From positions 37,285 to 87,368 of the forward strand of contig CADCIP010000027.1 in the NCBI GenBank assembly GCA_902801485.1: a stretch of 50,084 nt of DNA, given 5' to 3'. Each line of letters opens with the position of its first letter. Positions within the stretch are counted from its first letter, which is position 1. The translations under genes were made by a program, and so were the position numbers. Below are positions 7,786 through 49,440 of this stretch, piece after piece. The stretch comes from an uncultured Bacteroidales bacterium (GTDB taxonomy: Bacteria; Bacteroidota; Bacteroidia; Bacteroidales; Bacteroidaceae). Under the pieces are notes generated by a model that saw only the letters and a list, made by a program, of their open reading frames with translations, was not told the DNA's origin and made no database searches.

Positions 7786-9816
7786 ATGAAGAAACACTTG
7801 TTTTTATCGGCTCTTCTTCTGCTGCCCCTCGGTATGACGGCAAAAGATGTGAAAATCGCTTCGCCCAACGGCAAGCTCGAAGTAACTGTCAAGGACAATG
7901 GCGGCCTCGCCACGTACAGCGTAACCCTGAACGGACAGCCTGTCCTGTTGCCTTCCAGGTTAGGTTTCAAGGCCGATTTTGCCGACTTCACGCATGGCCT
8001 TGCCATCACAGAGGACCATCCGGGTTCCTGTAATGGCGATTACCGTATGTGGCAGGTAAAGCAGTCAAATATCAGTTTCAAGGCTAATACGCTCGATGTT
8101 ACCTTCGAGAATGCACAGAAGTTGCAGATGACGGTCGAGCTTGTTGTGAAGGACAACGATATTGCATTCCGTTACACCATTCCGCGTCCTAAGAAAGACA
8201 ACCCCAAGTGTGCCGTCATTACAGAAGAGGTAACTTCTTTCTGTCCGACCGAAGGCACCACCACCTTCCTCTGTCCCCAGATTGATGCCATGAAAGGGTG
8301 GGAGCGTACCAAGCCCAGCTACGAGGAAGGCTATCGTGCGGATGCACCCATGAATACCCGTTCGACTTTCGGTCAGGGCTACACCTTCCCCTGCCTCTTC
8401 CATCTTCCTGCAGCCCCTCAACCCTCTTATATCTCCTCCTCCTCGGGGGAGGTTGGGAGGGGGCTTCAACTCTCAACCGACGGTTGGATGCTGATTAGCG
8501 AGACAGGCGTTGACGGTCAATATTGCGGTTCTCACCTTTCCGATTACCATTCGGGAGCAGGCTACACCATAGCCTATCCGCAGGCAGGCGAGAACAACGG
8601 CTTCGGCTCAACAGGGGCGCAGATAGCCCTTCCCGGTGCTACTCCCTGGCGAACCATTACGGTAGGAGAGACATTGAAACCTATCGTAGAGACTACCATC
8701 CCCTACGATGTGGTAGGACCGCGATATCCTCTAAACTCTACACTCTCCACTCTCCACTCATCCGCAAGGTACACCTGGAGCTGGCTCATCTGGCAGGATA
8801 ACAGCATTAATTATGACGATCAGGTGAAGTTCATCGACCTCGCCGCTGCTATGGGCTACGAGTTCTGTCTGGTGGATAACTGGTGGGACGAGCGTATAGG
8901 TCGTGAACGCATAGAGGAGCTTTCTAAGTATGCCCGGCAGAAGGGCGTTTCGCTGATGCTGTGGTACAACTCGAACGGAGCCTGGAACGATGCGCCGCAG
9001 ACACCACGCAACATCATGAATAACAGCATCGCCCGCGACCGCGAGATGGCCTGGCTGCAGCGCATAGGCGTGAAGGGCATCAAGGTGGATTTCTTTGCCG
9101 GCGACAAGCAGGAAACGATGAAGCTTTACGAGGATATCCTCTTCGATGCCAACCGCTACGGCATCCAGTGTATCTTCCACGGCTGTACCATTCCCCGCGG
9201 CTGGGAACGTATGTACCCCAACTATATCGCCAGCGAGGCTGTCTTGGCTAGCGAGAATGTCTTCTTCGGCGAGAATGCCGCCATTCAGGAGCCTTTCGAT
9301 CTGACCCTGCATCCCTTCTGCCGTAATGCCGTAGGTACCATGGACTGGGGTGGGGTAATCATGAACAAGTACCTCTCGAAGGACAATAAGGACCGCCATT
9401 CGCGCAAGACAACCGATGTGTTCGAGATTGCAACTGCCTTTACCAATCAGACTGCCGTTCAGTGTATTGCCATCCAGCCCAACAACTTGCAGGAACTTCC
9501 CCAGCATGAGTTGGATTTCCTGAAGACCATTCCCACCACTTGGGACGAAACACGTTTCATCGACGGCTATCCCGGCAAGTTTGTCGTGCTGGCTCGCCGT
9601 CATGCCGACCGCTGGTATATCGCAGCCCTGAATGCCAAGAAGGAGCCGCTTAGCCTGACGCTTAACCTCAGCGAGTTTGGTGTAAAGAACCTCCTTGCGG
9701 ATCAGGCTGACAAGAAAGGCAACATAACAGGTTCGGCCGTCCTGCCCATAAAGGCAGATAAAAAGGGAAACGTAAAGCTGACTGTCCAGCCCAATGGCGG
9801 TGCAGTGATTTATTAA
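7786..9816 (+). CDS. Glycoside hydrolase family 97 enzyme, secreted (probable retaining alpha-galactosidase type)
   Basis: 676 residues, signal peptide MKKHLFLSALLLLPLGMTAK. The N-terminal beta-sandwich of GH97 starts IASPNGKLEVTVKDN; the TIM barrel begins near TWSWLIWQDNSINYDDQ. GKVDFF-type motif GIKVDFF places an Asp at residue 435 where retaining GH97 enzymes have their nucleophile, and IASEAV gives Glu484 as a candidate acid/base. Inverting SusB-type enzymes lack this Asp, so alpha-galactosidase-like activity is more likely than alpha-glucosidase; this is inferred from motifs only. The gene carries two low-complexity inserts derived from intergenic-type repeats (8410-8480 and 8729-8767), both in frame. 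It is followed by a GH78-type gene on the same strand. Confidence 0.9.
   Translation: MKKHLFLSALLLLPLGMTAKDVKIASPNGKLEVTVKDNGGLATYSVTLNGQPVLLPSRLGFKADFADFTHGLAITEDHPGSCNGDYRMWQVKQSNISFKANTLDVTFENAQKLQMTVELVVKDNDIAFRYTIPRPKKDNPKCAVITEEVTSFCPTEGTTTFLCPQIDAMKGWERTKPSYEEGYRADAPMNTRSTFGQGYTFPCLFHLPAAPQPSYISSSSGEVGRGLQLSTDGWMLISETGVDGQYCGSHLSDYHSGAGYTIAYPQAGENNGFGSTGAQIALPGATPWRTITVGETLKPIVETTIPYDVVGPRYPLNSTLSTLHSSARYTWSWLIWQDNSINYDDQVKFIDLAAAMGYEFCLVDNWWDERIGRERIEELSKYARQKGVSLMLWYNSNGAWNDAPQTPRNIMNNSIARDREMAWLQRIGVKGIKVDFFAGDKQETMKLYEDILFDANRYGIQCIFHGCTIPRGWERMYPNYIASEAVLASENVFFGENAAIQEPFDLTLHPFCRNAVGTMDWGGVIMNKYLSKDNKDRHSRKTTDVFEIATAFTNQTAVQCIAIQPNNLQELPQHELDFLKTIPTTWDETRFIDGYPGKFVVLARRHADRWYIAALNAKKEPLSLTLNLSEFGVKNLLADQADKKGNITGSAVLPIKADKKGNVKLTVQPNGGAVIY
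8410..8480. repeat. G/C-rich palindromic repeat inserted in frame in the GH97 gene
   Basis: The stretch CTCCTCCTCCTCGGGGGAGG followed by TTGGGAGGGGG resembles the CTCCCTCTCCTCGGAGAGGG elements found between genes here. It encodes a Ser/Gly-rich stretch (YISSSSGEVGRGLQ) between HLP and DGWMLISETG, a point where GH97 proteins normally have a short turn. Confidence 0.7.
8729..8767. repeat. Seven-base-type repeat inserted in frame in the GH97 gene
   Basis: CTCTAAACTCTACACTCTCC followed by ACTCTCCACTC repeats with a period near seven, and matches the TTTAGAG/TTGAGAG arrays seen between genes (reverse complement). It encodes YPLNSTLSTLHSS just before the barrel strand RYTWSWLIWQD. Confidence 0.65.
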
Positions 9817-9930
9817 CGAAAGACGAAAGACGAAAGACGAAAGACGAAAGACCGAAGGTCAAAAACTAAAACGCCAATCCCTAATCTTGGCTCCCTCTCC
9901 TCGGAGAGGGCGGGGGGAGAGGCTGAAACC
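9817..9930. repeat. CGAAAGA heptamer array followed by a G/C-rich palindrome
   Basis: Directly after the GH97 stop codon, CGAAAGA is repeated about five times (9817-9852). At 9889-9930 follows CTCCCTCTCCTCGGAGAGGG with a CGGGGGGAGAGG tail, the standard palindromic element of this window. Together they fill the gap to the GH78 gene. Confidence 0.85.
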
Positions 9931-9942
9931 GCTAACCGTATT

Positions 9943-12153
9943 ATGAGATATTTCCTGTTAACACTTCTCGTGGCATTTCCTCTTCTGGGGCAGGCTGAAG
10001 ACTGGAAGGGACAGTTCCTGACACTGGAGCATCATCAGAGTCGCCCCAATACATGGATGCTTTGGCGCAAAAAGGCGAACGTGGAGAAGGTGCCAGCCTC
10101 TGTGAAGGCAAAGATTGCAACAGATTCCAAGTATTGGCTTTACATCAATGAGCAGCTCGTTGTTTTCGAGGGAGGACTGAAACGGGGACCGGCGCCCAAT
10201 GCAAGCTATTACGATGAGGTGGAGATAGCGCCTTCCCTGAAGCCCGGCGAGAACCTGATAGCTGTGCTGACGTGGTATTTCGGCTTGAACGGCTTCAGTC
10301 ATGTCAGCAGCGGAACGGCAGGCCTTCTCTTCGAAGCCAGGGCCGACGGGGTGGATATCTGTTCCGACAAGACGTGGCGCGGTGCTGTCTATGGCGCATA
10401 CGGCGAGACAGGCGAGCCGAAGCCGAACTACCGCATCTCGGAAAGCAACATTCGCTTCGATGCCAGGAAAGAGGAGCAAGGCTGGTACAAGAACAGCTAC
10501 ACCTACGGTCTGGAGGAAGTCTTGCCTGTCGATGTCGGGAACTGCACCCTGGGGCGACTCGTCAAGCGCCCTATTCCCCAGTGGAAGGATTACGGACTGA
10601 AGGATTATGTGCGTACGGAGCGACACGGCGACACGCTGGTGTGCCGGCTTCCGTATAACTGCCAGTGCACGCCTTACATGAAGCTGAAATCTGCCGAGGA
10701 AGGACTGCTCATCAAGATACAGACGGACGTTCACATGATAGGCGGGTCGCCTACTCCCCGATGTGAGTTCATCACCCGTAAGGGGGAGCAGGAGTACGAG
10801 AACTTCGGATGGTTCAACGGGCACGAGGTGTGGTATATCCTGCCCGAAGGCGTGGAGATGGAGGAGGTGAAGTTCCGCGAGACGGGATACGGATGCGACT
10901 TCGTGGAGCCTTTCCAGTGCGACGATACGTTCTTCAACGAGTTGTGGAAGCGTGCCCAGCGGACTCTCTACATCACGATGCGGGACAACTACATGGACTG
11001 CCCGGACCGTGAACGCGGTCAGTGGTGGGGCGATGCGGTCAACGAGTTGGGCGAGGCGTATTATTCGCTGAGTCCGGAGGGAGCGCAGCTGGGCTTCAAG
11101 GGCCTGAACGAGCTTTTCGGCTGGCAGCGTGCCGATGGTGTGCTCTACTCGCCTTGTCCTGCGGGAAACTGGAACAAGGAACTGCCCAGTCAGATTCTGG
11201 CTACCTGCGGCTGGTACGGCATCTATACCCAATGCTATTACGGTAACGATTTCTCTGTCGTCAGGACGCATTATCCTCGCTTGCACCGCTATCTTCATGA
11301 TGTCTGGCAGACGGATGCCGACGGACTGGCTGTTCTGCGTTACGGAGACTGGTTCTGGGGCGACTGGGGCGAGAATATCGACCAACTGCTCCTGCAGAAT
11401 TGCTGGTACTATCTTGCCCTGAAGGGTGAGCTGGAGTTGGCGAAGATGCTGGGCAAGACTGCCGATGTGGCTCAGATAAGCAGCATGATGACGAAGATGG
11501 AGGAGAACTTCGACAGGAGATTCTGGAAGGACGGCGTGTACCGTTCGCCTGACTATCAGGGGGAGACCGACGACCGGGGAAATGCGTTGGCTGTTGTGTC
11601 GGGGCTGGCATCGGAAGATAAATATCCGTCCCTTACGGCTTGTCTTACCAAGGAGTATCACGCAAGCCCCTACATGGAGAAATACGTTCTGGAGGCCCTG
11701 TTCCAGATGAAGGCTCCCGACGCGGGACTCGACCGTATCCGCAAGCGCTACAAGCCTATGCTGGATTTCCCCGGACTGACCACACTGCCGGAAAACTGGT
11801 TGCCTGAGGGGGCAAAGCCTAAGCCGGGCGAGCCTATGGTGAACGCTTGCTGGGGCACGTATAATCACGGCTGGAGTGGCGGGCCCCTGACTATCTTGAG
11901 TCAGAAGGTTTGTGGCGTAGAGCCCACTTCGCCAGGATTCCGTACGTTCCGCATCTGTCCTCAGCTGGGATACCTGAATCGTGCGGCTTGTACAGTGGAG
12001 AGCTCGAGCGGCAGGATAAAGGTGAGCATCCAGAGGAAGGGCAGGAAGCTGGAACTGAATGTCAGTGTACCTCAGGGCACCTCGGCAGAAGTCGTCTTCC
12101 CTAGTGGGAAAAGGCAGACGCTGGAGAGCGGACAGCATGTGCTCAAAGGGTAG
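9943..12153 (+). CDS. GH78-type alpha-L-rhamnosidase-like enzyme, secreted
   Basis: 736 residues with signal peptide MRYFLLTLLVAFPLLGQAE. An N-terminal beta-sandwich region (KYWLYINEQLVVFEGG; FNG..VWYILP) precedes a six-hairpin (alpha/alpha)6 barrel. The barrel carries MDCPDRERGQWWGDA, the counterpart of the conserved acidic CP.RDER..W.GDA motif of bacterial rhamnosidases. The C-terminal sandwich starts near SPGFRTFRICPQLGYL. It would release terminal rhamnose or a similar sugar from plant glycans such as pectin; substrate is inferred from family only. It lies 126 bases after the GH97 gene, separated by repeats, and may share its transcript. Confidence 0.85.
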   Translation: MRYFLLTLLVAFPLLGQAEDWKGQFLTLEHHQSRPNTWMLWRKKANVEKVPASVKAKIATDSKYWLYINEQLVVFEGGLKRGPAPNASYYDEVEIAPSLKPGENLIAVLTWYFGLNGFSHVSSGTAGLLFEARADGVDICSDKTWRGAVYGAYGETGEPKPNYRISESNIRFDARKEEQGWYKNSYTYGLEEVLPVDVGNCTLGRLVKRPIPQWKDYGLKDYVRTERHGDTLVCRLPYNCQCTPYMKLKSAEEGLLIKIQTDVHMIGGSPTPRCEFITRKGEQEYENFGWFNGHEVWYILPEGVEMEEVKFRETGYGCDFVEPFQCDDTFFNELWKRAQRTLYITMRDNYMDCPDRERGQWWGDAVNELGEAYYSLSPEGAQLGFKGLNELFGWQRADGVLYSPCPAGNWNKELPSQILATCGWYGIYTQCYYGNDFSVVRTHYPRLHRYLHDVWQTDADGLAVLRYGDWFWGDWGENIDQLLLQNCWYYLALKGELELAKMLGKTADVAQISSMMTKMEENFDRRFWKDGVYRSPDYQGETDDRGNALAVVSGLASEDKYPSLTACLTKEYHASPYMEKYVLEALFQMKAPDAGLDRIRKRYKPMLDFPGLTTLPENWLPEGAKPKPGEPMVNACWGTYNHGWSGGPLTILSQKVCGVEPTSPGFRTFRICPQLGYLNRAACTVESSSGRIKVSIQRKGRKLELNVSVPQGTSAEVVFPSGKRQTLESGQHVLKG

Positions 12154-12370
12154 GTTGTATCAATATGTCAATAATTTTTTGAATGTGTTTTCTTCCCCGC
12201 TGGGAAGGCCAAGTTAGGGATTATTCTTTAGTGCACGTAAGAATTTTTACCGCCACGTGTGGGAGTAATTTTTCATCCCTTCCCTTTGACATTGCAAATG
12301 TATAACAATTTTTTAGAATGTCCAAATATTTTCGTCAGTATTTTCTAAATTTTTATTAAATATTTTCATG

Positions 12371-12520
12371 GTATACAGTATACAGTATACAGTATACAGT
12401 TTTGGTTTAGTGGGAGAAAAATTTTTATTATTATATTATATTATATATATATATAATATAATATAATAATAACCATAACTTCAACTCTTTTCAAGAAACT
12501 GTATACTGTATACTGTATAC
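12371..12520. repeat. Inverted GTATACA heptamer arrays flanking a 48-bp perfect A/T palindrome
   Basis: Left arm 12371-12400 is about four copies of GTATACA; right arm 12498-12520 is about three copies of TGTATAC, its inverse complement. Between them, 12425-12472 is made only of A and T and is a perfect palindrome centred between 12448 and 12449. The whole could fold into a long hairpin or cruciform. Confidence 0.9.
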
Positions 12521-12790
12521 AAAGAATGTCTTTTCCTGATTTTGGTGGTTCTTCTTCACTTTTGTTGATAAAAGAAAACCAGGAAAACCCCTCTTCAGCT
12601 GTCTTAGCTCTTCGAACTTCTGTGGTGGCTCATGGCTTTGTGCCTGTGAACAAGTTCCCGCACAAGTCATGACATCCCCACACATTGCTACGCAACGTAA
12701 GACAACTTCCGAGGAAAAACACCGTTACGCTTCGCTCCACTAAAAAAGCTGCACATTGTGGCTAAAAACAACTTGTTTACTTGTTAACTC

Positions 12791-12830
12791 AAAAATGGTA
12801 AATGGTAAATGAAAAATGGTAAATGAGAGG
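12791..12830. repeat. AAATGGT heptamer array
   Basis: AAATGGT is repeated three to four times with one altered unit (AAATGAA), in the non-coding region upstream of the WYL gene. Confidence 0.75.
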
Positions 12831-13250: not shown

Positions 13251-13257
13251 CGACGAA

Positions 13258-13434
13258 ATTAATTAAAATTTCGGGAGTTACAAGATGGATTTAAACAGGG
13301 AGTTATGCGCTTCGCGCAGGAAGTTAAGCCAACAAGTTGGCAGGACGATAGTCTTGGATGCTGTCTGCCTATATGGTATTGTCCTTTTATTACTTCCAAT
13401 TTAACTTCCATTTTTACTTCCAATTTAACTTCCT
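13258..13434 (+). repeat. Copy A of a ~180-bp dispersed element (leader-like, with hairpins and a short frame)
   Basis: This stretch is repeated on the other strand at 48533-48712. A core of about 56 bases (13296-13351) differs at only two positions. It contains two small hairpins, GCGC-TTC-GCGC and GCCAAC-AA-GTTGGC, and ends in ACTTCC repeats of period 12. Both copies lie directly upstream of a gene and both contain a short ATG-led frame in the same register. Confidence 0.8.
13285..13404 (+). CDS. Possible 39-residue peptide in repeat copy A
   Basis: The frame starts MDLNRELCASRRKLSQQVGR and ends in a hydrophobic LLLLPI tail. The copy at 48604-48684 gives MKSNRKLCATRRKLSQQVGR, so 16 of the first 20 residues match, but base identity is just as high, so selection on the protein is not shown. 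It could be a leader peptide or a by-product of a structured repeat. Confidence 0.25.
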   Translation: MDLNRELCASRRKLSQQVGRTIVLDAVCLYGIVLLLLPI

Positions 13435-22743: not shown

Positions 22744-22960
22744 GTGCTATTGATGTCGATATATTGCTGGATAACTCTTGCAGGAATTCTGGTATAGTCT
22801 TCCATAAAATAAAATGCTTGATATACAGAAACTTATGCGTTATGTCGATACCCCGGCGAAAAAATATATCTTCACATCGACATTAAATTCCAACTATTTT
22901 ATGTAAATTTGTGCCAATATTTCATTGATTTACAATAATCTCTTATTCTGTAGATACAGG
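22744..22960 (+). promoter_or_regulatory. CRISPR leader region
   Basis: About 217 A/T-rich bases between the cas2 remnant and the first repeat, with no gene. Position and composition fit a leader, which would drive transcription of the array to the right. Confidence 0.65.
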
Positions 22961-23513
22961 ATGTTAATCGTACTTATGTAGAATTGAAATGACGAAATGA
23001 AACAGGAGTTTTACGAACTCTATGACAATGTTAATCGTACTTATGTAGAATTGAAATACGGTAGATCCTGTTCGTGTAGGTGTCGGTATATATATGTTAA
23101 TCGTACTTATGTAGAATTGAAATATTGTCTCTGTAGTTGCAGCAGCTGAGTTTTTCCATGTTAATCGTACTTATGTAGAATTGAAATAGCACAAGACCTG
23201 TAATGGCTGTGCCGCCTGCACGGATGTTAATCGTACTTATGTAGAATTGAAATAGGGCAGCACACGCAGCGGAAAGGATGCCGATGGATGTTAATCGTAC
23301 TTATGTAGAATTGAAATATGGTTTGCCCGACTCGAGGACGTATTAAAATGAATATGTTAATCGTACTTATGTAGAATTGAAATAGCCTCAATACGCTTTT
23401 CCTCAGAAGCATAATATCATGTTAATCGTACTTATGTAGAATTGAAATTAAAAAAGGTTTAGTTTTAGAGGGTAAATAATTAAATGTTAATCGTACTTAT
23501 GTAGAATTGAAAT
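22961..23513 (+). CRISPR. Type I-B CRISPR array: 9 repeats of 30 nt, 8 spacers
   Basis: Repeats start at 22961, 23028, 23094, 23158, 23224, 23288, 23354, 23419 and 23484. Each begins ATGTTAATCG and ends GAATTGAAAT, and all nine are identical by eye. Spacers are 37, 36, 34, 36, 34, 36, 35 and 35 nt. The GAAAT end is typical of repeats processed by Cas6. No repeat decay is seen even at the distal end. Confidence 0.98.
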
Positions 23514-24069: not shown

Positions 24070-25359
24070 ATGACACGTGAAGAGATGATTGCAAAAGGAT
24101 TGACGCCCAATGAAACAAAGCATAACGGACATCGTAGGGCGTTCTTTCATGACTATAATCGACCCGGGACTTATATGATTACGATGGTGACGGAAGGGAG
24201 GAAACGTGTTTTTGGCTGTATCGAGGGGCATATCCGCGGCAAACAAGGAACGGCTGATTACCCTCATTTACATTGTTCTGCCCTGGGTTCTTTGGTTCTT
24301 CAGGAAGAAGTGAAGAAAATCCCCATGTTTTATCCTATGGTAGAGGTGTGGAAAGTGGCATTGATGCCAGACCACATTCACCTTCTGATAAATGTGAAGA
24401 AGAAGCTGCCAGCAGGGAAGCATTTGGGGAACATTGTGCGTGGTTTTAAGACTGGCTGCACGAGGGCTTGGTGGAAATTGGAGGATGAAGCGTCCTGTGA
24501 TGTGCCCTGTGGAGAAGCACAGGGCACAATGTTGCGGAGGGAGGATATTGGAGAAGCACAGGGCACAATGTTGCGGAGGGAGGATATTGGAGAAGCACAG
24601 GGCACAATGTTGCGGAGGGAGGATATTGGAGAAGCACAGGGCACAGTGTTGCGGAGGGAGGATATTGGAGAAGCACAGGGCACAGTGTCTCCGAGGGAGG
24701 ATATGCGCCCCAGTGGAGAAATCCCGAGTACTGTGCCTGAGGTTTTTCCCTCGGGTTTACGGCCAGTTCTCTTTCAGGCGGGCTATCACGATCGCATTGT
24801 TATGAGAGATTGTACGTTAGATAATATCTTTCGCTATATGGAAGAGAACCCTTTTAGGGCGAAGCTTAGGGAAGAGACCCCAGATCTTATGCAACGCCAG
24901 CTACACCTGTGGATTCAAGGCCGCGAGTATGCGGCCTTTGGTAATCTTTTCTTGCTGAAATACCCAGAGAAAGAACAGGTGTTTTTTCATCGGAGAAGCA
25001 AAGAGGGAATCCCTACACATCTCACCCCCGAGTATGATAAGGAAAAGACTCTGTTGCTCCAGCACGCAGAACAGGGCACTGTGCTGGTAACACCGGGCAT
25101 ATCTGAAGGAGAGAAGGGAGTTGTTCAAGCAGCCTTAGCGGAACACTTTGCGCTTATTATCTTACAAAAAGAACCCATTACAGAATATTGGAAGCCTTCG
25201 CAAGGCCGTTTCTACGCTTGCGCTACAGGTAGATTGTTAATCCTGGCTCCTTGGAAGGTTGTGGGAGATTCAGATTATACCCGCTTTCATTCTTTGAACG
25301 ACATGGCTCGTGAAATTTGCCAGGCAACCGATACACGTTTGCTGGGCTTTGGATGTTAA
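24070..25359 (+). CDS. REP-associated tyrosine transposase (RAYT, Y1_Tnp family) with expanded internal repeats
   Basis: 429 residues. The HUH motif is MPDHIHLLI (His102, His104). The likely nucleophile is Tyr256 in FRYMEENPFRA. Such enzymes cut single-stranded DNA at REP hairpins and are thought to spread them. Between the two catalytic parts, residues 148-212 are five 13-residue repeats (EAQGTMLRREDIG type). The C-terminal ~150 residues (GTVLVTPGISEGEKGVV, ATGRLLILAPW) form an extra domain seen in Bacteroidales homologues that resembles DprA/SLOG-type Rossmann folds; this is inference. It has its own promoter. It is the only obvious candidate in the window for mobilising the many G/C-rich palindromes. 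Confidence 0.85.
   Translation: MTREEMIAKGLTPNETKHNGHRRAFFHDYNRPGTYMITMVTEGRKRVFGCIEGHIRGKQGTADYPHLHCSALGSLVLQEEVKKIPMFYPMVEVWKVALMPDHIHLLINVKKKLPAGKHLGNIVRGFKTGCTRAWWKLEDEASCDVPCGEAQGTMLRREDIGEAQGTMLRREDIGEAQGTMLRREDIGEAQGTVLRREDIGEAQGTVSPREDMRPSGEIPSTVPEVFPSGLRPVLFQAGYHDRIVMRDCTLDNIFRYMEENPFRAKLREETPDLMQRQLHLWIQGREYAAFGNLFLLKYPEKEQVFFHRRSKEGIPTHLTPEYDKEKTLLLQHAEQGTVLVTPGISEGEKGVVQAALAEHFALIILQKEPITEYWKPSQGRFYACATGRLLILAPWKVVGDSDYTRFHSLNDMAREICQATDTRLLGFGC
24511..24705 (+). repeat. Five 39-bp tandem repeats inside the RAYT gene
   Basis: Units begin GGAGAAGCACAGGGCACA at 24511, 24550, 24589, 24628 and 24667. The first three are identical, the fourth differs by one base, the fifth by several. 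CACAGGGCAC in each unit can pair with GTGCCCTGTG at 24501-24510. The unit is 13 codons, so copy-number changes keep the frame. Confidence 0.97.
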
Positions 25360-31723: not shown

Positions 31724-31790
31724 CAATCTCTAACCTCTAACCACTAATTGGTTCTCCCTCTCCTCGGAGAGGGTAGGGGTGAGGCTTCCT
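31724..31790. repeat. CTCTAAC heptamers and a G/C-rich palindrome forming the 3' end of aguA
   Basis: CTCTAACCTCTAACCAC (period seven) is followed by CTCCCTCTCCTCGGAGAGGG and TAGGGGTGAGG. The aguA frame reads through both in reverse before stopping. Confidence 0.8.
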
Positions 31791-32905
31791 AACGGGAATT
31801 GCATGGCTGAGCAATGGATGGAGCCGTGCTGAAGGATAAGCGTCTGACTGTCTATCTCCACAATCTCGTGCTTGGGGAACGCTTTGGCCAGTTGGCTGTG
31901 TGCCTGACGGTCGGTTTCGTAATCGCCGTATGTGGGCATCAGCACGGCCTTATTGATAATAAGGAAATTGGCGTAGGTGGCAGGCAGGCGGGAACCGTCT
32001 TCGTCGAACCTCTTGGGAGCCATTGGCAATGGGATAAGATTATAGGGCTCGCCGCTGAGGGTCCTGAAGGTGCGTAGCTGCTCCTCCATGAGTTTCAACT
32101 CGGCATAGTGCTCGTCTTCGTTATCTGTGCATTGAACGTAGGCAATGGTGTTGTTGGGACAGAAGCGGGCCAGGGTATCTATGTGGCTGTCCGTATCGTC
32201 GCCGGCCAGATAGCCGTGATCGAGCCAGAGGATGCGCTCGGCATGGAGGTAAGAGAGTAGCTTCTTCTCGATATCGGCCTGTGTGAGAGGCTGGTTCCTG
32301 TGTGGAGCCAACAGACATTGACTGGTAGTGAGGATGGTTCCCATACCGTCGCTCTCTATGCTGCCGCCTTCGAGAACGAAATCCAGATGGTCTTCGTACT
32401 CACCCTTGAAAATGCCTTGCTGCATCAGGTTCCGGTTTATCTGGTTGTCCAACTCGGCAGGAAACTTCTCGCCCCATCCGTTGAATCGGAAGTCGAGCAG
32501 GCACGTGCCTGTCTCGGTAAGTAAGGTAATGAACCCATGATCGCGAGCCCAAGTGTCGTTGGTGGGCATCTGGCAGAACATAATCTGCTGGCATACCTGC
32601 TTGGGCAACTGCTCTGTAAGGAGCGCCTTTACTTGTTCGGGCTCTGGGGTAACGATGAGAAGCTTCTCGCGAGAGGCAATCTGCATGGCCATCTGGATGT
32701 AGCAATGTGTTACTTCCTTCAGAACGGGAGCCCAGTCGGTACCGGCATGCGGCCATGTTAGCTGAACAGCACATTGCGGATACCATTCGGCAGGCAGATG
32801 GGTAGATCGGATTTCTGTCAGTTCAGGGCCATGCTCCTCATCATATCGGAGTAGCATGAGCAGATCGGTAATTGTTGTTGTCGGTTTCTGAATATGAATA
32901 GCCAT
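31730..32905 (-). CDS. aguA: Agmatine deiminase with a repeat-derived C-terminus
   Basis: 391 residues from ATG 32905 (MAIHIQKPTTT); a longer in-frame start at 33037 would cross the promoter region and is rejected. Motifs: MPTNDTWARDHG, GWGEKF, LEGGSIESDG, DHGYLAGDDTDSHIDT, and GSIHCSAMQFP with the catalytic Cys. It converts agmatine to N-carbamoylputrescine. The natural protein should end shortly after AMQFP; here about 18 extra residues (LTPTLSEERENQLVVRG) are encoded by intergenic-type repeats. It lies just upstream of aguB, 29 bases apart. Confidence 0.95.
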   Translation of the reverse strand: MAIHIQKPTTTITDLLMLLRYDEEHGPELTEIRSTHLPAEWYPQCAVQLTWPHAGTDWAPVLKEVTHCYIQMAMQIASREKLLIVTPEPEQVKALLTEQLPKQVCQQIMFCQMPTNDTWARDHGFITLLTETGTCLLDFRFNGWGEKFPAELDNQINRNLMQQGIFKGEYEDHLDFVLEGGSIESDGMGTILTTSQCLLAPHRNQPLTQADIEKKLLSYLHAERILWLDHGYLAGDDTDSHIDTLARFCPNNTIAYVQCTDNEDEHYAELKLMEEQLRTFRTLSGEPYNLIPLPMAPKRFDEDGSRLPATYANFLIINKAVLMPTYGDYETDRQAHSQLAKAFPKHEIVEIDSQTLILQHGSIHCSAMQFPLGSLTPTLSEERENQLVVRG

Positions 32906-34814: not shown

Positions 34815-34905
34815 TTTACTGTTTACTGTTTACTGTTTATGGTTTACTAACCTCTAACCTCTAAAGTTCCCCTCTCTTTCGGAGAGGGGTTAGGGGTAAG
34901 GTTTT
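34815..34905. repeat. GTTTACT and CCTCTAA heptamers, then a G/C-rich palindrome
   Basis: GTTTACT about four times, CCTCTAA twice, then CCCCTCTCTTTCGGAGAGGG with GTTAGGGGTAAGG. All lie between convergent genes. Confidence 0.85.
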
Positions 34906-43536: not shown

Positions 43537-43981
43537 CTGGCCACAGGCCAGGGCGAAGCCTTTCAGCATCGGCACCGCAGGGAGCGCCTTGCCGCATTCC
43601 ACTACTGCCATAGCGTAGCCTATCAGTAGCCAGTTGGTGGGATGCGTCTGCGGGTCACCCAAGTCCCTGTCGGGGCCTATTCCCGTGTAGTCCTACACAT
43701 GACGGATGTAGGCCTCCGTGTTGTTCTCCTTGGGTGGTGCCCATCGGGACACAATGTCCCTGATGGTCTTCAACCCGTACTTTCCATAGTAGGTTCGGCA
43801 GAGAATCACAAAGGCTGCTCTCCAACCATATTCCATAGATGAGAACACACAAAAGACAGCCTCTCCCCCCGCCCTCTCCGAGGAGAGGGAGCTGTTTCCG
43901 TCGATGTTCCCTTTCCCGTTTATCACTTGATAATCTGATATTCAACGGATTGTTGTTCCTGATTCCTCTTGGTTCACTCAT
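43534..43981 (-). pseudogene. P5-like phage structural / lysis-type protein, broken by a palindromic repeat
   Basis: The first 20 codons read SEPRGIRNNNPLNIR. A G/C-rich palindrome at 43858-43893 then shifts the frame. After it the original protein resumes in another frame as MEYGWRAAFVILCRTYYGKY, GLKTIRDIVSRWAPPKENNT. A TAG follows YIRHV; beyond it DYTGIGPDRDLGDPQTHPTN and MLKGFALACGQ complete the protein. So one insertion-frameshift plus one stop codon disable it. In Bacteroidales this family is annotated as structural protein P5 and lies with HU-like and smalltalk genes. Confidence 0.75.
43858..43893. repeat. G/C-rich palindromic element inside the P5-like gene
   Basis: CAGCCTCTCCCCCCGCCCTC then TCCGAGGAGAGGGAGC: the standard element, here causing a frameshift. 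Confidence 0.85.
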
Positions 43982-43989
43982 AATATCAG

Positions 43990-44042
43990 CCTCTCCCCCC
44001 GCCCTCAAGCCTCACCCCTAACCCCTCTCCGAGGAGAGGGGA
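43990..44042. repeat. Composite G/C-rich palindromic element
   Basis: GCCTCTCCCCCCGCCCTCAA is followed by GCCTCACCCCTAACCCCTCT and CCGAGGAGAGGGG: parts of two elements in tandem, just upstream of the P5-like start. Confidence 0.85.
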
Positions 44043-44208: not shown

Positions 44209-44289
44209 TTCGATTAAATAGTTTAATGGGTTAATAGCTTAAGTAGTTTAATTCTCAATTTGAAGAGAGGGGGCTTTCGCCCCGCTCTC

Positions 44290-44404
44290 CATTCCCCCTA
44301 AAGGGCGACTGGGGTCTTCAGAGGAGCCACTGAATGTGGCTCTGGCCCCACAAAGGGGAGCGAATCCCCATTCGCGACGGAGGGGCCCGAAGGGTTAGGG
44401 GGTC
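44290..44404. repeat. ~105-bp composite palindromic repeat, copy 1 (inverted partner at 44981-45092)
   Basis: CCCCCTAAAGGGCGACTGGG leads into GAGCCAC-TGAAT-GTGGCTC and GCGAAT-CCCC-ATTCGC hairpins. The partner copy on the other strand has GAACCAC-TGAAT-GTGGTTC: both sides of the stem changed together. Confidence 0.85.
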
Positions 44405-44968
44405 TTAGTCTTCATCCGCTCCTGGCTCATCGCCACCACCACCGTTGTCGTCACCGCTTCCCTCGTTAGGGTTTGGGTTAACGTTCCCGTTGGTGTTACC
44501 ACCATTCTGGTTTTCGTTCTCGTTGTCTTCCACGTCGTTGGTGTCGGCGCTGGTCACGCGTTTCACGATGTTGCCGTCCTTGTCGTAGCAGGTGATGGCA
44601 ATCTTGGTGTTCTGGAGCTCGTCCTTCACCTCCTTGGATGGAGTGAAGATAACGCGACGGGCTGAGATGAGCGAGGTCTTCACGTCCTCTACGTTCTGCA
44701 CACTCTTGGAGCGGACGCTGAAGCGCATGCTGCCCAGACCAGGCAGAGGCACGTTGTGGCCTTCGGTTGCCCAGGTGCGGATAACCTCGCCTGCTGCGTC
44801 CCAGGCAGCCTTGATAACCCCTACGCTGATGCCGCTTCGCTTGGCAGCCTCCTCGATCACCTTGCTGGCGTCCAGCGTGTTGTACAGGTGTGCCGAGAGC
44901 ACGTAGGCCAGTTTCTCAACGTTCTTTTCGAACGATACGTTCTGTTGCTTTGCTTTAATCTGAATCAT
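44405..44968 (-). CDS. HU-family DNA-binding protein (HU-HIG type)
   Basis: 187 residues from ATG 44968 (MIQIKAKQQNVSFEKNVEKL); an upstream in-frame ATG reads through the repeat and is rejected. The HU fold spans ~1-125, with helices VIEEAAKRSGISVGVIKAAW and the arm VPLPGLGSMRFSVRSKS. A low-complexity Asn/Gly/Glu/Asp tail follows. HU-like proteins bend DNA. It is flanked by the two inverted ~105-bp repeats. Confidence 0.88.
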   Translation of the reverse strand: MIQIKAKQQNVSFEKNVEKLAYVLSAHLYNTLDASKVIEEAAKRSGISVGVIKAAWDAAGEVIRTWATEGHNVPLPGLGSMRFSVRSKSVQNVEDVKTSLISARRVIFTPSKEVKDELQNTKIAITCYDKDGNIVKRVTSADTNDVEDNENENQNGGNTNGNVNPNPNEGSGDDNGGGGDEPGADED

Positions 44969-44980
44969 AATAGTAACCCT

Positions 44981-45092
44981 CTCCCTAACCTTTTGCCCAT
45001 CTTCGCGAATGGTGATTCGCTCACCTTTGTGGGGCCGGAACCACATTCAGTGGTTCCTCTAAAGACCCCAGTCGCCCAAATGGGAGGGGACT
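44981..45092. repeat. ~105-bp composite palindromic repeat, copy 2
   Basis: Reads as the reverse complement of 44290-44404 with about 80-85% identity by eye, and keeps both hairpins. It lies in the leader of the HU gene. Confidence 0.85.
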
Positions 45093-45243
45093 GCAAACAG
45101 GGGTATGGCAGTCTTGGTTAAACATTTTGAATTTTCAATTTTTTCCCCTCCGGAGCCTGCACGTGTTGTTCCCGGGAATGTGCAAACGTGGGCTCGGGGA
45201 GGGTGCAAATGCACGCGCTCGTGCCTGCTTTCTTAAGACACTA

Positions 45244-45251
45244 CAAAGGTA
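45244..45251 (-). promoter_or_regulatory. -7 box upstream of the HU gene
   Basis: TACCTTTG on the minus strand. It would give a leader of ~270 nt that contains the palindromic repeat. No clear -33 box. Confidence 0.45.
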
Positions 45252-45356
45252 CGACATTCGCCGCCACCGTTCTGACGATAGCTGGCGATGCCGTACGATT
45301 CCTGTACTTTATTTGCGATAAAACATCATCCATCTTACTTCTTACATCTTACATCT

Positions 45357-45575
45357 TCATGGTTTTCCCAACTGCTCTACGATAGCTTTTACCTGACGGG
45401 GCGTAAACGTCTTGCAGGTGGTTTCGTAGCCCATCTCCTGCAGTTGTTGACAAAGCTGGGTGCAGCGTCGAATCCAACTCATCAAGTGGCTCACGGCTGT
45501 GTGTGGGCTGCTGTCTGGAAAGTACATCAGCGCCAATTCCTTCTTGGTGTAAGGTCGTATTCTGAAATCATCCAT
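45357..45575 (-). CDS. DUF4248 family protein
   Basis: 72 residues: MDDFRIRPYTKKELALMYFP, then a helical region (AVSHLMSWIRRC) and TFTPRQVKAIVEQLGKP at the end. Small helix-turn-helix-like family restricted to Bacteroidales and found beside primase/DUF3987 and HU-like genes, as here. Function unknown; DNA binding is plausible. Confidence 0.82.
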   Translation of the reverse strand: MDDFRIRPYTKKELALMYFPDSSPHTAVSHLMSWIRRCTQLCQQLQEMGYETTCKTFTPRQVKAIVEQLGKP

Positions 45576-45598
45576 AATATAATTGTTAGATTATACAT

Positions 45599-46540
45599 TC
45601 AGCATTCTTCCACTCCCCCAAAGGGGGAGCCAGAGGGGGCCTTCAAATAGTACTCGCTGAAATCCTTGCAGGTGGGTGGCAATTGGTGATGCACCAGCGA
45701 GGGCAACACCTTTTGAAGTTGCAGGAAGAGTCGTTCGCCAGGCTCGTCACAATCTGGCCACATGTGGAACTGAATGGAGAATCGACCTCTTACCTCTTCC
45801 ATCTTACTTCTTACATCTCGCGTTATCAGCGTGGCCGACGGGATTGCGATGGCCTTATGGCCAGCTGATAAGAGACTCCAGCAATCGCTACAACCCTCAG
45901 CTATGTAGAGCTCATCGCCTGGCTTCAGCAGGTTCAGAACAGGCAGGTTATAGATGCCACATTGCGAGCCTTGGGGAAAGCGGAAGCGAGGAAGGGCACC
46001 TTTAATGAGGTTGCGGTTCTGAATGCCCACCAACTTGCCCTCACAATTATAATAAGGTATTTGCAACCAAGGTACGCCCAGCTTATCTTTCCATGAGGTC
46101 AAACGACACCAGCGAACTACCCGCTCATCCAAACGCCGCTCCTCGAAGAGAAACTTCTTGGCCTCAGGCAAAAGCCAAGGATGCTCGAAGAAACGGGCAT
46201 ATCGAGAAGCATCAAAAAGACCCCCTCTATCTCCCCCTCTAAGGGGAGAATTTGGTTTAGCCTCTCCATAGAGGGAGAGGTTTGGAGAGGGTCCTTCGTC
46301 GGCAAGCCAGCGGCAAGTTTCCACGAAGTCCTTTCCCAGCATTTTCTCTGCCAGTTTGATGGTATCTCCACTTTCCCCGCAGCTCCAGCATTTGAACTTA
46401 TTTTTCTTAAAGGACATGCTTGCATGATGGTCGTCATGAAACGGACACAAGCATTTATGGTGGCTCACGTATAGCCCAAGTCGCTCTGCGACCCCCTCAA
46501 TGGGAAGGTCGCGGAGCTTCTGAAGTTCAAATCTAGTCAT
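45599..46540 (-). CDS. CHC2 zinc-finger / TOPRIM primase with several repeat-derived inserts
   Basis: 313 residues. The zinc finger is CLCPFHDDHHASMSFKKNKF followed by KCWSCGESGD. The TOPRIM part has LYIAEGCSDCWSLL and WPDCDEPGERLF. It would make RNA primers for the cassette. Three stretches look like repeats read in frame: the linker YGEAKPNSPLRGGDRGG (46219-46294), VRSKMEEVRGRF (GTAAGAT heptamers, ~45783-45822), and the C-terminus KAPSGSPFGGVEEC. The linker and the last 14 residues lie outside the core folds, so activity may be kept. Confidence 0.85.
   Translation of the reverse strand: MTRFELQKLRDLPIEGVAERLGLYVSHHKCLCPFHDDHHASMSFKKNKFKCWSCGESGDTIKLAEKMLGKDFVETCRWLADEGPSPNLSLYGEAKPNSPLRGGDRGGLFDASRYARFFEHPWLLPEAKKFLFEERRLDERVVRWCRLTSWKDKLGVPWLQIPYYNCEGKLVGIQNRNLIKGALPRFRFPQGSQCGIYNLPVLNLLKPGDELYIAEGCSDCWSLLSAGHKAIAIPSATLITRDVRSKMEEVRGRFSIQFHMWPDCDEPGERLFLQLQKVLPSLVHHQLPPTCKDFSEYYLKAPSGSPFGGVEEC
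45603..45645. repeat. G/C-rich palindrome forming the primase C-terminus
   Basis: CCACTCCCCCAAAGGGGGAG then CCAGAGGGGGCC: palindromic core CTCCCCCAAAGGGGGAG. The primase stop lies just beyond. Confidence 0.8.
46219..46294. repeat. Composite G/C-rich repeat inside the primase gene
   Basis: GACCCCCTCTATCTCCCCCT, CTAAGGGGAGA and, after 20 bases, CTCCATAGAGGGAGAGG with TTTGGAGAGGGTC. It replaces the linker between zinc finger and TOPRIM. Confidence 0.8.
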
Positions 46541-46546
46541 AATTTA

Positions 46547-46650
46547 GACCCCCCATCCCCCTTTAGGGGGAGTGTCCTGGGGGAAGGATTTTGAATTTTG
46601 AATTTAAACATTTGGAATTTATTATTCCCCCTAAAGGGGGTTAGGGGGTC
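46547..46650. repeat. Two G/C-rich palindromic elements between primase and DUF3987 genes
   Basis: CCCCCCATCCCCCTTTAGGG then GGAGTGTCCTGGGGGAAGG, and CCCCCTAAAGGGGGTTAGGG then GGTCC. The second overlaps the last codons of the DUF3987 gene. Confidence 0.85.
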
Positions 46651-47942
46651 CTGTACTTTTCCGTTTTCGTATACAGTCCCGTCTGGCTGGAGTACTCGAT
46701 AAAGCCGCGGTTCTTCCACACGTTCAGCTGATGCTTGGTGCCCTCACGGCTCTTGCCAAGTTCCTGGCGCAAGGCTTCCAGCTGCTGTTCGTTGAACGAG
46801 CGGTCAAGGCTGTCGAGCATGTTCTTCGGGCCTGTCCTCTGCGCTTCATCCATCAGGGCATCGCCACCCTTGAACATATCCGAGAACACCCTTACCTTCG
46901 ACCAAAGGTCGTAGTAGCAAAACCACACCATGAAGTCGCCAATCGAGCGGCTATACGTCTGATTGTTCAGAACCCACAAAGTGGCGGCCTTCTTCCATGC
47001 GCTGAATATCGAGCGATGCGAAAGTTCAAACAACATGTCGTCATCAGCAAGGTCTGCCAGACGCGCCATCTCCTCAGCCAACTGGTCGGCAACCTTGTTC
47101 AGCGGCTTCACCACGAATCGCCCCTTGCAGTTATCCAGTCGCAGCAGGTACTGGTCCAGTTCCTGAAGGAAACCTTCGTCATACTGACCTTGACGCGGAA
47201 TCCTGCCCTTGCGCTCGCTACGCCCCTTGTAGGCAAAGGGAATACGTCCGAAGAATCCGTTCGTCATGTCCCGCTTATAGAACAAACGGGCAGCCTCTGG
47301 CGTCGAGCTGAATGTAAGGTTTACGCGGAGCAAGGGATTGCCGGTCACTCCTTCGGCAGTAGCACGCAAAGCGCCTGCACGCTGGCGGTCGTAGATGTTG
47401 CGCACCATCTGGCTCACCTGCTTGTGTCCGCCACACATCTTGTCGGCCATCTCCACCTCGGGCAGGTTCAGATACTGCGTGCGGCCTCCCTGCTGCTCAA
47501 GTGCCAAGGCGTTCTGCAGGAAAGCGGGCGCTGTGATATCGGCAGGCGGGAACCAGAAGCTAACTGCAGGACGCTCAGGTTTCTCCTTGTTTGCTCCACG
47601 CGTCTTCATCTGACGAATCCAGTCGGCCAACTTCCTATATTCCACCTCGTCGTGGTCTCGGAATGGTCTCATGATGGCCTCGATGAGATGTGTCAACTGC
47701 GCCTTACCGATACCGCTTGGGCCTACCAAATGCCCCATTTGGCCACAAAGTTCATAATATTGGTTATCGGAATACATCAGTTCCACGTCGGTCAGATGAG
47801 CAGCAAGTGCAGGCAAAGCCATCGGAACTAGCGGTTCGCGCATGTCTTTTGAGGCCTGAGAGAGTAGTAATTTCACAATTTCTGTGCCTTTTGAAGGCTT
47901 AGGCATCGCCGGAGCGGTGCTGTTGAAGATATTGTAAGTCAT
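46641..47942 (-). CDS. DUF3987-type P-loop ATPase
   Basis: 433 residues. GPSGIGKAQLTHLIEAIMR is a P-loop whose usual Ser/Thr after Lys is Ala. LNLPEVEMAD sits at the Walker B position, without the common Asp-Glu. RVNLTFSSTPEAARLFY and NGFFGRIPFAY are family motifs. It resembles the helicase-like ATPases paired with primases in mobile elements and VirE-like proteins. The last residues RTP are encoded by a palindromic repeat. It precedes the primase gene on the same strand. Confidence 0.82.
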   Translation of the reverse strand: MTYNIFNSTAPAMPKPSKGTEIVKLLLSQASKDMREPLVPMALPALAAHLTDVELMYSDNQYYELCGQMGHLVGPSGIGKAQLTHLIEAIMRPFRDHDEVEYRKLADWIRQMKTRGANKEKPERPAVSFWFPPADITAPAFLQNALALEQQGGRTQYLNLPEVEMADKMCGGHKQVSQMVRNIYDRQRAGALRATAEGVTGNPLLRVNLTFSSTPEAARLFYKRDMTNGFFGRIPFAYKGRSERKGRIPRQGQYDEGFLQELDQYLLRLDNCKGRFVVKPLNKVADQLAEEMARLADLADDDMLFELSHRSIFSAWKKAATLWVLNNQTYSRSIGDFMVWFCYYDLWSKVRVFSDMFKGGDALMDEAQRTGPKNMLDSLDRSFNEQQLEALRQELGKSREGTKHQLNVWKNRGFIEYSSQTGLYTKTEKYRTP

Positions 47943-47981
47943 TGCTTTTTAGAGAGTTAAATTAACTGATAATATAGCCGG

Positions 47982-48151
47982 CAGTCTCAGTCTCAGAGTC
48001 TCAGTTATTTTTCAAACCTACCCATCAACTCACTCTTATATATATATTTATTATATATCTATCTAATAATCAATAAGTTACAAGTGTTATAAGAGGTGGC
48101 TGCGAGTTAGATTGTGACTTTTTTTCTAACTGAGACTGAGATTTGAGACTG
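47982..48151. repeat. Inverted GTCTCAG arrays flanking an A/T-rich core
   Basis: Left arm 47982-48007 is CAGTCTCAGTCTCAGAGTCT then CAGTTA; right arm 48127-48151 is TAACTGAGACTGAGATTTGA then GACTG, its inverse complement with small changes. The core holds TATATATATATTTATTATAT. The architecture is the same as at 12371-12520. Confidence 0.85.
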
Positions 48152-48178
48152 TTCAGCGAATTCTTCACTCTTCATTCT

Positions 48179-48514
48179 TCACTCTTCACTTCCCTTTACA
48201 AGGCCAGTTACTACGATAAGTTCCTCGGCAGCCTCACGGCAGAAGTCCTGAAACGTGAAGTTCTTGCTGTAACGCGGACGGTTGAACGTAGGGTACAGCG
48301 TACCGTCATCGGCACGGCTCACGTTGATGTACTTCCCCATGTAAATGTGCGGGTTGCGCTTCTGCGTTGCCGGATGGCTCTCCAGGAAAGTGTAGTGGTC
48401 CTCCCCGTCGCGCATCAGCACGCCCCTGTAATTCTTACCAATCCTAGTCACTCTGTCTGTGCGCAGGAGTGTCTTAACATCCATGCACAAGTCTGTGTTG
48501 CATAATAAAAACAT
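48179..48514 (-). CDS. Unknown small cassette protein
   Basis: 111 residues from ATG 48514; a second ATG (MDVKTLLRTDRV) at 48484 is equally possible. Motifs such as RIGKNYRGVLMRDGEDHYTF and HIYMGKYINVSRADDGTLYP look like a compact beta-rich protein. I recognise no family. The C-terminus (LVKGSEE) comes from a CTTCACT heptamer array (48160-48192). It lies directly downstream of dispersed element copy B. Confidence 0.6.
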   Translation of the reverse strand: MFLLCNTDLCMDVKTLLRTDRVTRIGKNYRGVLMRDGEDHYTFLESHPATQKRNPHIYMGKYINVSRADDGTLYPTFNRPRYSKNFTFQDFCREAAEELIVVTGLVKGSEE

Positions 48515-48532
48515 AATTAAAAATTGAGCTAT

Positions 48533-48712
48533 CGGAAGTTAAAATGGAAGTTAAATTGGAAGTAAACTCGCTACGCTCGTGGGAGTTAAAATGGACAAGA
48601 CCATTACACGTGCAGAACTATCGTCCTGCCAACTTGTTGGCTTAACTTCCTGCGCGTAGCGCATAACTTCCTGTTTGACTTCATTTTATAACTCCAGAAA
48701 TTTAAATTAATA
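48533..48712 (-). repeat. Copy B of the ~180-bp dispersed element
   Basis: Minus-strand counterpart of 13258-13434, with the same order: AATTT..GGAGTTA start, hairpins GCGC-TAC-GCGC and GCCAAC-AA-GTTGGC, AGGACGATAGT, then ACTTCC repeats. It lies 19 bases upstream of the gene at 48514, as copy A lies upstream of the WYL gene. Confidence 0.8.
48604..48684 (-). CDS. Possible 26-residue peptide in repeat copy B
   Basis: MKSNRKLCATRRKLSQQVGR followed by TIVLHV. Same register as the frame in copy A. Coding status unproven. Confidence 0.2.
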   Translation of the reverse strand: MKSNRKLCATRRKLSQQVGRTIVLHV

Positions 48713-48815
48713 ATGTAATTAAAATGCCCTTCCAGCACTTGCACGATGATATAGAAAGGCGTTCTTCATCTCGTGCCCCGGAGCCGTGCTCAGTTTTTGA
48801 CTGCTGACAGACTTA

Positions 48816-48861
48816 TAAAAAGAAAAGCAGCAGAAACTCCGATGTTTGGAATTCCTGCTGC
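48816..48861 (-). terminator. Minus-strand terminator hairpin just after a promoter-like box
   Basis: On the minus strand GCAGCAG..TTTCTGCTGC with TTTTCTTTTT. It starts at the TACCTTTG box, so it would stop a transcript of about 45 nt or act as an attenuator. Confidence 0.65.
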
Positions 48862-48868
48862 AAAGGTA
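48861..48868 (-). promoter_or_regulatory. Minus-strand -7 box upstream of copy B
   Basis: TACCTTTG on the minus strand between two terminator hairpins. No -33 TTTG at the usual spacing. Confidence 0.4.
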
Positions 48869-48883
48869 CGGATAGGCAGAAAT

Positions 48884-48918
48884 AAAAACCCGCTACATGG
48901 CTGCTACATGTAGCGGGT
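48884..48918 (-). terminator. Terminator of the unknown gene at 48946
   Basis: Stem CCCGCTACAT/ATGTAGCGGG followed on the minus strand by TTTTTATTT, 28 bases after the stop codon. Confidence 0.85.
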
Positions 48919-48945
48919 ACAACCCACCCCCTAAATGTGTTGTTT

Positions 48946-49440
48946 TTATCGGAAAATACGCTTTATTTCATCCTGAAACGTCAACGCCTGTTGCATGTTG
49001 AGAGCCTTGTAATAGTCGCGATACATATTTCGCCGATTCCATAGTCCTTCAAAAGTCTTCCACTTCTCTGTTATATCCAGCCGAACAGCCATCTCGAAGG
49101 CCAGAATAGCTGATAGCGTTCGGGAGATTGTAGGCTGAAAGTTCTCGTCGACATACCCCGCCTCCTGCGCCTTCCTCCATAGTACCATTGCCGCCTCGGT
49201 ACAGAGTTCGTTAGGTAGGCTATTGGCTTTTTCAGAGTTATCTTCTCCCCTCGCCCTTTGGAGATGGGTTGGGGGACGGGCTTCTATTCTTTGCGTTTCA
49301 ATCTTATCCACGTGCTGTGCGCCTGGCGATACATATACTATTTGTAGGTGGCTGAAATGTTGGTCATAGCCTGCTTGATGCAGCCGTTCAAGCAGGCGAT
49401 TCAATTCATCGAGGCTATCCTCGTCGTTATTGTAATTCAT
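48946..49440 (-). CDS. Unknown cassette protein with a repeat-derived insert
   Basis: 164 residues. N-terminus: DELNRLLERLHQAGYDQHFS and VYVSPGAQHVDKIE. C-terminus: PTISRTLSAILAFEMAVRLD and WNRRNMYRDYYKALNMQQAL. Similar small proteins occur in Bacteroidales mobile elements, but function is unknown. Between the halves, EARPPTHLQRARGEDN is encoded by CTCCCCTCGCCCTTTGGAGA then TGGGTTGGGGGACGGGC, a palindromic repeat in frame (49240-49295). It has a full promoter and a very structured ~275-nt leader. Confidence 0.65.
   Translation of the reverse strand: MNYNNDEDSLDELNRLLERLHQAGYDQHFSHLQIVYVSPGAQHVDKIETQRIEARPPTHLQRARGEDNSEKANSLPNELCTEAAMVLWRKAQEAGYVDENFQPTISRTLSAILAFEMAVRLDITEKWKTFEGLWNRRNMYRDYYKALNMQQALTFQDEIKRIFR

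Follow-up and report, generated by a model that had tools for sequence, protein, structure and literature searches.

Palindromic elements at the locus

The window analysed here, the whole 50,084-nt stretch from contig CADCIP010000027.1 of an uncultured Bacteroidales bacterium, contains G/C-rich palindromes that lie between genes and also in frame inside genes. These palindromes are a real repeat family: the motif CCCTCTCC occurs 14 times in the 50,084 nucleotides (nt), as compared to a mean of 1.3 in shuffled sequence. A single element has about 36 nt and consists of a hairpin of about 18-22 nt, in its commonest form CCCCTCTCC-nn-GGAGAGGGG, followed by a G-rich tail such as TTRGGGGTGAGGCT that usually ends with GGCT, and paired elements span roughly 70-110 nt. 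From 20 aligned seeds of the source genome a sequence model was made that is here called R1. The window copies at 9893 and 44006 are among the seeds, and as R1 was built from source-genome copies, the matches of such seed copies hold by construction; one palindrome may also score on both strands. At an expectation value (E) of up to 1, R1 has nine matches in the window, and an Rfam search of the window gave no match above the gathering score.

The initial annotation had placed intergenic elements at 9889, 31754, 34867, 43990, 46547 and 46624, and all of these are present. The element between the gene of a GH97 protein and the next open reading frame (ORF; 9893-9926, + strand, E 4.1e-6) is exactly complementary over 36 nt to 43857-43892, where another intergenic element lies (43857-43889, - strand, E 9.1e-6), and the element at 44006-44041 (- strand, E 2.5e-8) is identical over 38 nt to a copy within uxaA. 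The elements at 34867 and around 46.6 kb are weak in terms of R1, yet they are perfect hairpins: the first (34868-34904, + strand) has an 8-bp hairpin with a G tail (E 0.18 for the match at 34871), and the second region (46550-46645, no strand assigned) comprises a 7-bp and a 6-bp hairpin (E 0.13 at 46550), the right one of which forms the stop codon of ORF 46641-47942. The C-terminus of a protein labelled DUF3987 had also been attributed to an element, which indeed provides the stop, but only about two residues are concerned and the protein length is normal; for the label itself, Pfam gives no support up to an E of 1.

Inside the GH97 gene, 25 codons (8407-8481, + strand; residues 208-232) contain the element 8434-8466 with an R1 E of 1.9e-5, which bears out the earlier assignment of 8410-8480. 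The insert lies in a loop between two beta strands, with 25 residues as compared to two in the closest homologue (L039, which is the same protein as L065), and it is absent also from the solved structure 5xfm. By eye, this loop holds different repeat-like peptides in 4 of the 29 homologue rows, and two of these have R1 matches in the locus. In the AlphaFold2 model the fold is kept, with a template modelling score of 0.96 (target length) to 5xfm and a mean predicted local distance difference test score (pLDDT) of 85.9; pLDDT falls below 50 only at residues 12-16 and 214-229, the latter lying between the strands 199-207 and 233-240. The same gene has a heptanucleotide array in frame (8729-8759, + strand), which is read as NSTLSTLHS and is about four residues longer than in most homologues. 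The agmatine deiminase-like protein (aguA) has a C-terminal extension (31730-31792, - strand) from the element 31756-31787 (E 9.4e-5), just as had been read from 31730-31785, and this tail is absent from all 29 homologues shown; the aguA homologue L157 has a different element-like tail, and that of the sister genome G015 contains an internal in-frame copy (L182). In all alignments, homologues of more than 99.5% identity were dropped, and the score floors were 100 bits for GH97 and holA, 60 for aguA, the primase-like protein and the cassette gene, 200 for gltB, 150 for dapL and gltD, and 120 and 50 in the alignment set that includes pyrF.

Other proposed cases fared differently. The segment 37161-37192 (+ strand) of holA, a DNA polymerase III delta gene according to NCBIfam, had been taken as an insert into an essential replication gene, but this is wrong. 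The segment has no R1 match, it is ungapped in 29 of 29 homologues shown, six of them from other families, and with KGVG in 25 of the 29 it represents a conserved C-terminal motif. In the primase-like protein, element-like sequence with two palindromes (46219-46294, - strand; two 7-bp hairpins) replaces the linker that joins the zinc finger to the remainder of the protein and makes it about eight residues longer than in L099, the linker of homologues being shorter or different, but the R1 match is weak (E 0.9 at 46221). The second primase segment, originally given as 45603-45645, is a short C-terminal tail (45599-45645, - strand) that is unlike the ends of homologues and includes an element on the + strand (45610-45639, E 0.013). 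For the unknown cassette gene, an origin of the segment 49240-49284 (- strand; originally 49240-49295) from an element is plausible, but the sequence is degenerate and has no R1 match, and the 92% homologue L129 carries the same segment. The primase-like gene and its neighbour look like a mobile cassette (45599-47942), and the primase-like protein was matched in 27 of the 101 genus genomes searched, often in several places.

Copies in the source genome and in other bacteria

In the 3.6-Mb source genome, the pattern CTCTCC(N0-10)GGAGAG has 57 matches, nested ones included, as compared to a single match of the reversed control pattern. An 850-kb sample of this genome (G000), consisting of 40 stretches of 20 kb and the window, has 28 places that follow the hairpin-plus-G-tail rule, and its complement control has none; some R1 seeds lie inside this sample, and some are in frame. 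Counted genome by genome, with stricter filters and at most 150 candidates scored per genome, R1 has at least 143 matches at E up to 0.1 in the source genome, matches are found in 20 of the 24 other genus members (1-144 each; G015 and G020 are among the carriers, G004 and G021 among those without any), and only 3 of 16 genomes from other families have any (36, 3 and 1). Within the 850-kb sample the R1 matches are unevenly spread, as 11 and 10 of the 57 best ones lie in two stretches (L207 and L034) and 20 of the 41 stretches have none.

Several copies at different sites are identical over much of their length. One gltB copy and one uxaA copy other than that mentioned above share 41 identical nt, two gltB copies likewise, and all three share 39; the copy in pyrF has 35 nt in common with a copy that the flank test described below did not call in frame. 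Altogether, 7 of the 17 in-frame copies of the source genome agree with other copies over 27-41 identical nt, and the identical stretches of 35-41 nt argue for recent copying. The copies are also oriented in a non-random manner: of 24 close pairs (at most 150 nt apart) in a first set, 20 have their tails outward, one inward, and three point in the same direction, with the reservation that a single palindrome, scored on both strands, accounts for two of the 20, and among 31 such pairs in named metagenome-assembled genomes (MAGs), 23 have tails outward, none inward, and eight the same direction.

An exact 34-nt pattern was found in 61 stretches of public genomes, 57 of which are from Bacteroidales MAGs, many with ruminant names. 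The others come from one Roseivirga, two Desulfamplus MAGs and one Coriobacteriaceae MAG, the last of which is perhaps a misbinned contig. At E up to 0.01, the Desulfamplus genomes contain 17 and 45 R1 matches and Roseivirga contains four, and an outward-tail partner lies nearby at each of the four loci examined outside Bacteroidales, although it is weak in Roseivirga (E 0.11). A similar repeat of Escherichia coli, which may be of the BoxC type, is present in 5358 of 5426 E. coli genomes, with a median of 16 places per genome; R1 matches it only partially with 11.6 bits. Judged from these near-identical copies in Desulfamplus and Roseivirga and the similar E. coli repeat, the elements are not specific to Bacteroidales.

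Inserts in conserved genes and their reading frames

Core metabolic genes elsewhere in the source genome carry inserts as well, including pyrF, dapF and dapL, which are often essential. In gltB, seven R1 matches lie within one open frame of 1583 residues, in which four Pfam domains are recognised over nearly their whole profiles, and many of the orthologues, of which 29 were aligned and 22 rows shown, lack the inserts or have others in their place. Two R1 matches are found in gltD, where the alignment to the solved structure 7mfm breaks, four elements in a histidine kinase gene, and one match in dapF (E 0.0056). The uxaA gene has one element pair, one single copy and one long hexamer/heptamer array, and its Pfam domain GD_AH_second spans 193 residues for 135 profile positions. 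In pyrF, the single insert lies in the loop before WVILLALTSNKGS; among relatives, element-like peptides are seen by eye at the same loop in 5 of 29 and at a second loop in 4 of 29. For dapL, such peptides were seen by eye in the same loop in 4 of the 14 rows that cover it, the source genome included, the R1 match being weak there (E 0.19). With gltD, pyrF, dapL, uxaA and GH97, the inserts fall into gaps or breaks of the alignments to solved structures, and many orthologues have no insert or a different one in the same loop. An alignment to homologues had been proposed as a check, and it showed inserts to be missing from many orthologues of GH97, aguA, gltB and pyrF, and the holA segment to be present in all those shown. 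That the segments are ordinary conserved or low-complexity parts of proteins that merely resemble repeats is true for holA and possible for the cassette gene with its lack of an R1 match, but as a general explanation it is extremely unlikely, given the 27-41 nt identities to other copies, R1 E-values of down to 1.2e-8 within a reading frame and the absence from orthologues, and it is already refuted for GH97, gltB, pyrF and uxaA.

The initial annotation had also proposed to count the elements and to check their frames. Coding potential was scored on both flanks of each R1 match, for the source genome with the 57 best of 76 matches (E up to 1; 19 weaker ones were left out), and further with 64 matches of relatives and 135 of named MAGs, whose loci were chosen by protein or pattern, hence non-randomly, and in part lie in the same genomes. 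In all sets together, 44 of 256 matches lie between coding flanks of the same frame, and there is not a single phase change. The source genome contributes 17 of 57 in frame, with 23 matches that have one coding flank and 17 that have none, the loci of relatives 6 of 64 (27 with one coding flank, 31 with none), and the 57 named Bacteroidales loci 21 of 135 (64 and 48, respectively), the remainder of this last set being one match with flanks in the same phase but with a stop, which resembles a gene junction, and one with flanks on opposite strands. Frame-breaking copies would have been detected, since the first 23 in-frame copies, when shortened by 1 or 2 nt, were called as phase change in 46 of 46 cases. 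Three matches in stretch L034, at 3963, 9063 and 1235, went uncalled in the flank test but lie within the open frames of gltB, gltD and dapF. The open frames and the lack of phase changes are indirect signs that the inserts may be translated. It is hardly credible that ribosomes skip the inserts or that they are spliced out and never reach the protein; strong mRNA hairpins could act in such a way, with nothing direct pointing to it, but skipped DNA would not be required to keep the frame and to avoid stops, yet 44 matches keep the frame, and the only same-phase case with a stop is the apparent gene junction.

It is likely that the palindromes are selfish, REPIN-like DNA that is copied into many sites, and that genes keep in-frame copies in tolerant loops in the manner of the Rickettsia palindromic elements (RPE). 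The elements would be short pieces of mobile DNA, not autonomous and built like REPINs, that often form inverted pairs whose tails face outward, and they would copy into many places, genes included. Selection would purge the frame-breaking copies, whereas copies that are free of stops and keep the frame would persist where the protein tolerates extra residues, and these survivors would be read as loops rich in Pro, Gly and Ser, with a length of very roughly 10-35 residues. In several related species it is the same loops that are hit. We infer that the elements are mobile and that the inserts are translated and nearly neutral. An alternative is that inserts are kept for a benefit, with element-derived loops being selected as linkers or for regulation. 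The same loops have inserts in several species (GH97, pyrF, dapL, gltB), and the inserts at gltB sites 2-4 are common to the sister genomes G000 and G015, but many close orthologues have no inserts, the insert sequences vary freely, the GH97 insert is predicted with low confidence, as is usual for disordered loops, and element frames are no more open than expected (4.67 of 6 frames open in 39 elements, versus 4.88 in composition-matched shuffles; random genome 34-mers have 3.93), which together make such a benefit quite improbable.

Heptanucleotide arrays are a second kind of repeat in this genome. The 850-kb sample has 81 arrays with period 7, as compared to 6 and 9 arrays with periods 6 and 8, respectively, and they have many different units; an order-1 Markov control made for 20 of the 41 stretches had no arrays. 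With respect to frame, 7 of the 81 are in frame, two have flanks of the same phase with a stop, one shows a phase change, 30 have one coding flank and 41 none, and two of the three arrays with a stop or phase change are at pyrF ends. A heptamer array lies within 60 nt of 5 of 57 palindromes and of 45 of 2000 random positions that are not in frame, which is suggestive of a link but comprises few cases, and the link was not adopted. Tandem-repeat peptides occur in the same hypervariable loops of other species (gltD of L279 and L283, primase of L116 and L117, gltB of L279, L295 and L303) and by eye have a heptamer or similar origin. Repeats of other types in the window are a CRISPR-like array at 22937-23513 with nine copies of the 30-nt repeat ATGTTAATCGTACTTATGTAGAATTGAAAT at a spacing of 64-67 nt, a 39-nt tandem repeat of five units at 24510-24704 within ORF 24070-25359, and two inverted repeat pairs, one of 95 nt at 91% (13258-13352 / 48617-48711) and one of 82 nt at 89% (44303-44384 / 44996-45077).

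A number of observations weigh against selfish elements that insert and are retained in frame. The power of the flank test is low, as 574 of 1500 random positions were called in frame, with only two phase changes and four opposite-strand cases; the in-frame copies are clustered, as the 17 of the source genome belong to seven proteins and two neighbourhoods account for 14 of them; some of the tested flanks themselves contain element sequence; and a rescoring of the first 121 matches with a pooled model gave 23 in frame and again no phase change, but two with opposite-strand flanks. The structure model of GltD is poor (mean pLDDT 63.5). Neither target-site duplications nor clean empty sites were seen, and R1 has no match at the ten Y1_Tnp loci examined, of which two belong to the genus and at most one is a source-genome hit. 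The Y1_Tnp domain was found in 4 of 15 relatives of the genus, whose genomes are incomplete, with one strong hit, two marginal ones and one below the cut-off, and in the source genome with two hits of 33 and 27 bits, both above the cut-off of 23. A REP-associated tyrosine transposase (RAYT) was therefore rejected as mobiliser, Y1_Tnp being rare or modest in the genus and unlinked to the elements. Finally, some gltB sites, such as site 7, show a loop replaced by an element at equal length, which counts against simple insertion, as insertion would not predict it. This equal or near-equal length is what would be expected if segments arose not through a process like transposition but through slippage or template switching when hairpins and G-rich DNA are replicated, or through conversion of one copy by another, so that loops were overwritten rather than interrupted. 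In line with this, no transposase is linked to the elements, and heptanucleotide arrays, which are likely products of slippage, occupy similar loops of this genome and are in frame there as well, but exact copies of 35-41 nt on different contigs and the strong bias for inverted pairs suggest a defined mobile unit, and overwriting by slippage is a doubtful explanation, albeit one to be reckoned with. Still bolder, and unlikely, is the idea that a hairpin-plus-G-tail repeat that is near-identical across phyla, with its 34-nt match in Bacteroidales, Roseivirga and Desulfamplus, forms, together with heptanucleotide arrays, a permanent source from which housekeeping enzymes of these gut Bacteroidales gain new loops, and which overwrites by copying without a REP transposase.

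With seven copies in one enzyme and the same loops hit in several species by different inserts, natural pairs of enzymes with and without insert are at hand for a test of how repeat DNA becomes protein and of what a protein tolerates. For annotation, the Pro/Gly-rich stretches derived from repeats are a warning, as they can mislead domain calls and the assignment of gene ends.

Comparison with known palindromic elements

The palindromes share with RPE and with the palindromic elements of Wolbachia that they are found both between genes and in frame within conserved genes, from which they are absent in orthologues. Both Rickettsia and Wolbachia are known to have in-frame palindromes, RPE have 105-146 bp, and the product of a gmk gene that contains an RPE is translated and active (PMC2229807). 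The elements of the window are set apart from the named RPE family by length and host, having only about 36 nt, and in contrast to the intracellular hosts of RPE, the host is a Bacteroidales bacterium with kin that by name are ruminant-gut MAGs and not obligately intracellular. The central idea of the initial annotation, a likeness to RPE in that intergenic palindromes also occur in frame within genes, holds, and in-frame copies extend far beyond the window; the elements are not restricted to Bacteroidales. Taken together, what the initial annotation observed is partly confirmed, and its interpretation is partly supported.

Repetitive extragenic palindromes (REPs) and their pairs, the REPINs, are another related system. 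REPINs are short palindromes with many copies per genome in inverted pairs (PMC3116915), and the elements described here likewise are short and numerous, with one inverted orientation over-represented. A RAYT gene flanked by copies was not found in the 15 relatives and at the ten Y1_Tnp loci, with incomplete genomes, and no GTAG or CGTC tag was seen by eye in the 20 aligned R1 seeds. REPs have been found within genes of several species, many of them replication and repair genes, and an in-frame palindrome in dnaE of Rickettsia conorii has already been published (PMC3733652). REPs are nevertheless described as mostly extragenic (PMC3733652, PMC3116915), unlike the 17 in-frame copies among 57 here. 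The 41-nt E. coli element upstream of fepB has the layout CCTCACCC-TAA-CCCTCTCC...GGGGCGAGGGG (PMC7311995) and thus resembles the elements in its combination of tail and hairpin, but the sequence match is only partial, and the one E. coli copy examined is intergenic. As to the arrays, heptanucleotides are reported to outnumber all other classes of short repeats in most of the genomes that were surveyed, and the TAACTGA arrays of Beggiatoaceae and the cyanobacterial arrays also have 7-nt units (PMC4679880); like these, the arrays of the source genome are mostly intergenic, but here many different units occur in one genome, and some arrays are in frame in genes.

In the open-licence literature, no earlier report of in-frame palindromes in Bacteroidales was found, nor any match to six peptide strings. 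In-frame palindromes have hitherto been known mainly from the intracellular Rickettsia and Wolbachia and as scattered REPs, and here they are dense in a gut genus. New in comparison to these systems are the host group, the element itself, its density, the fact that the same loops are used again and again, and that no REP transposase is linked to the element.

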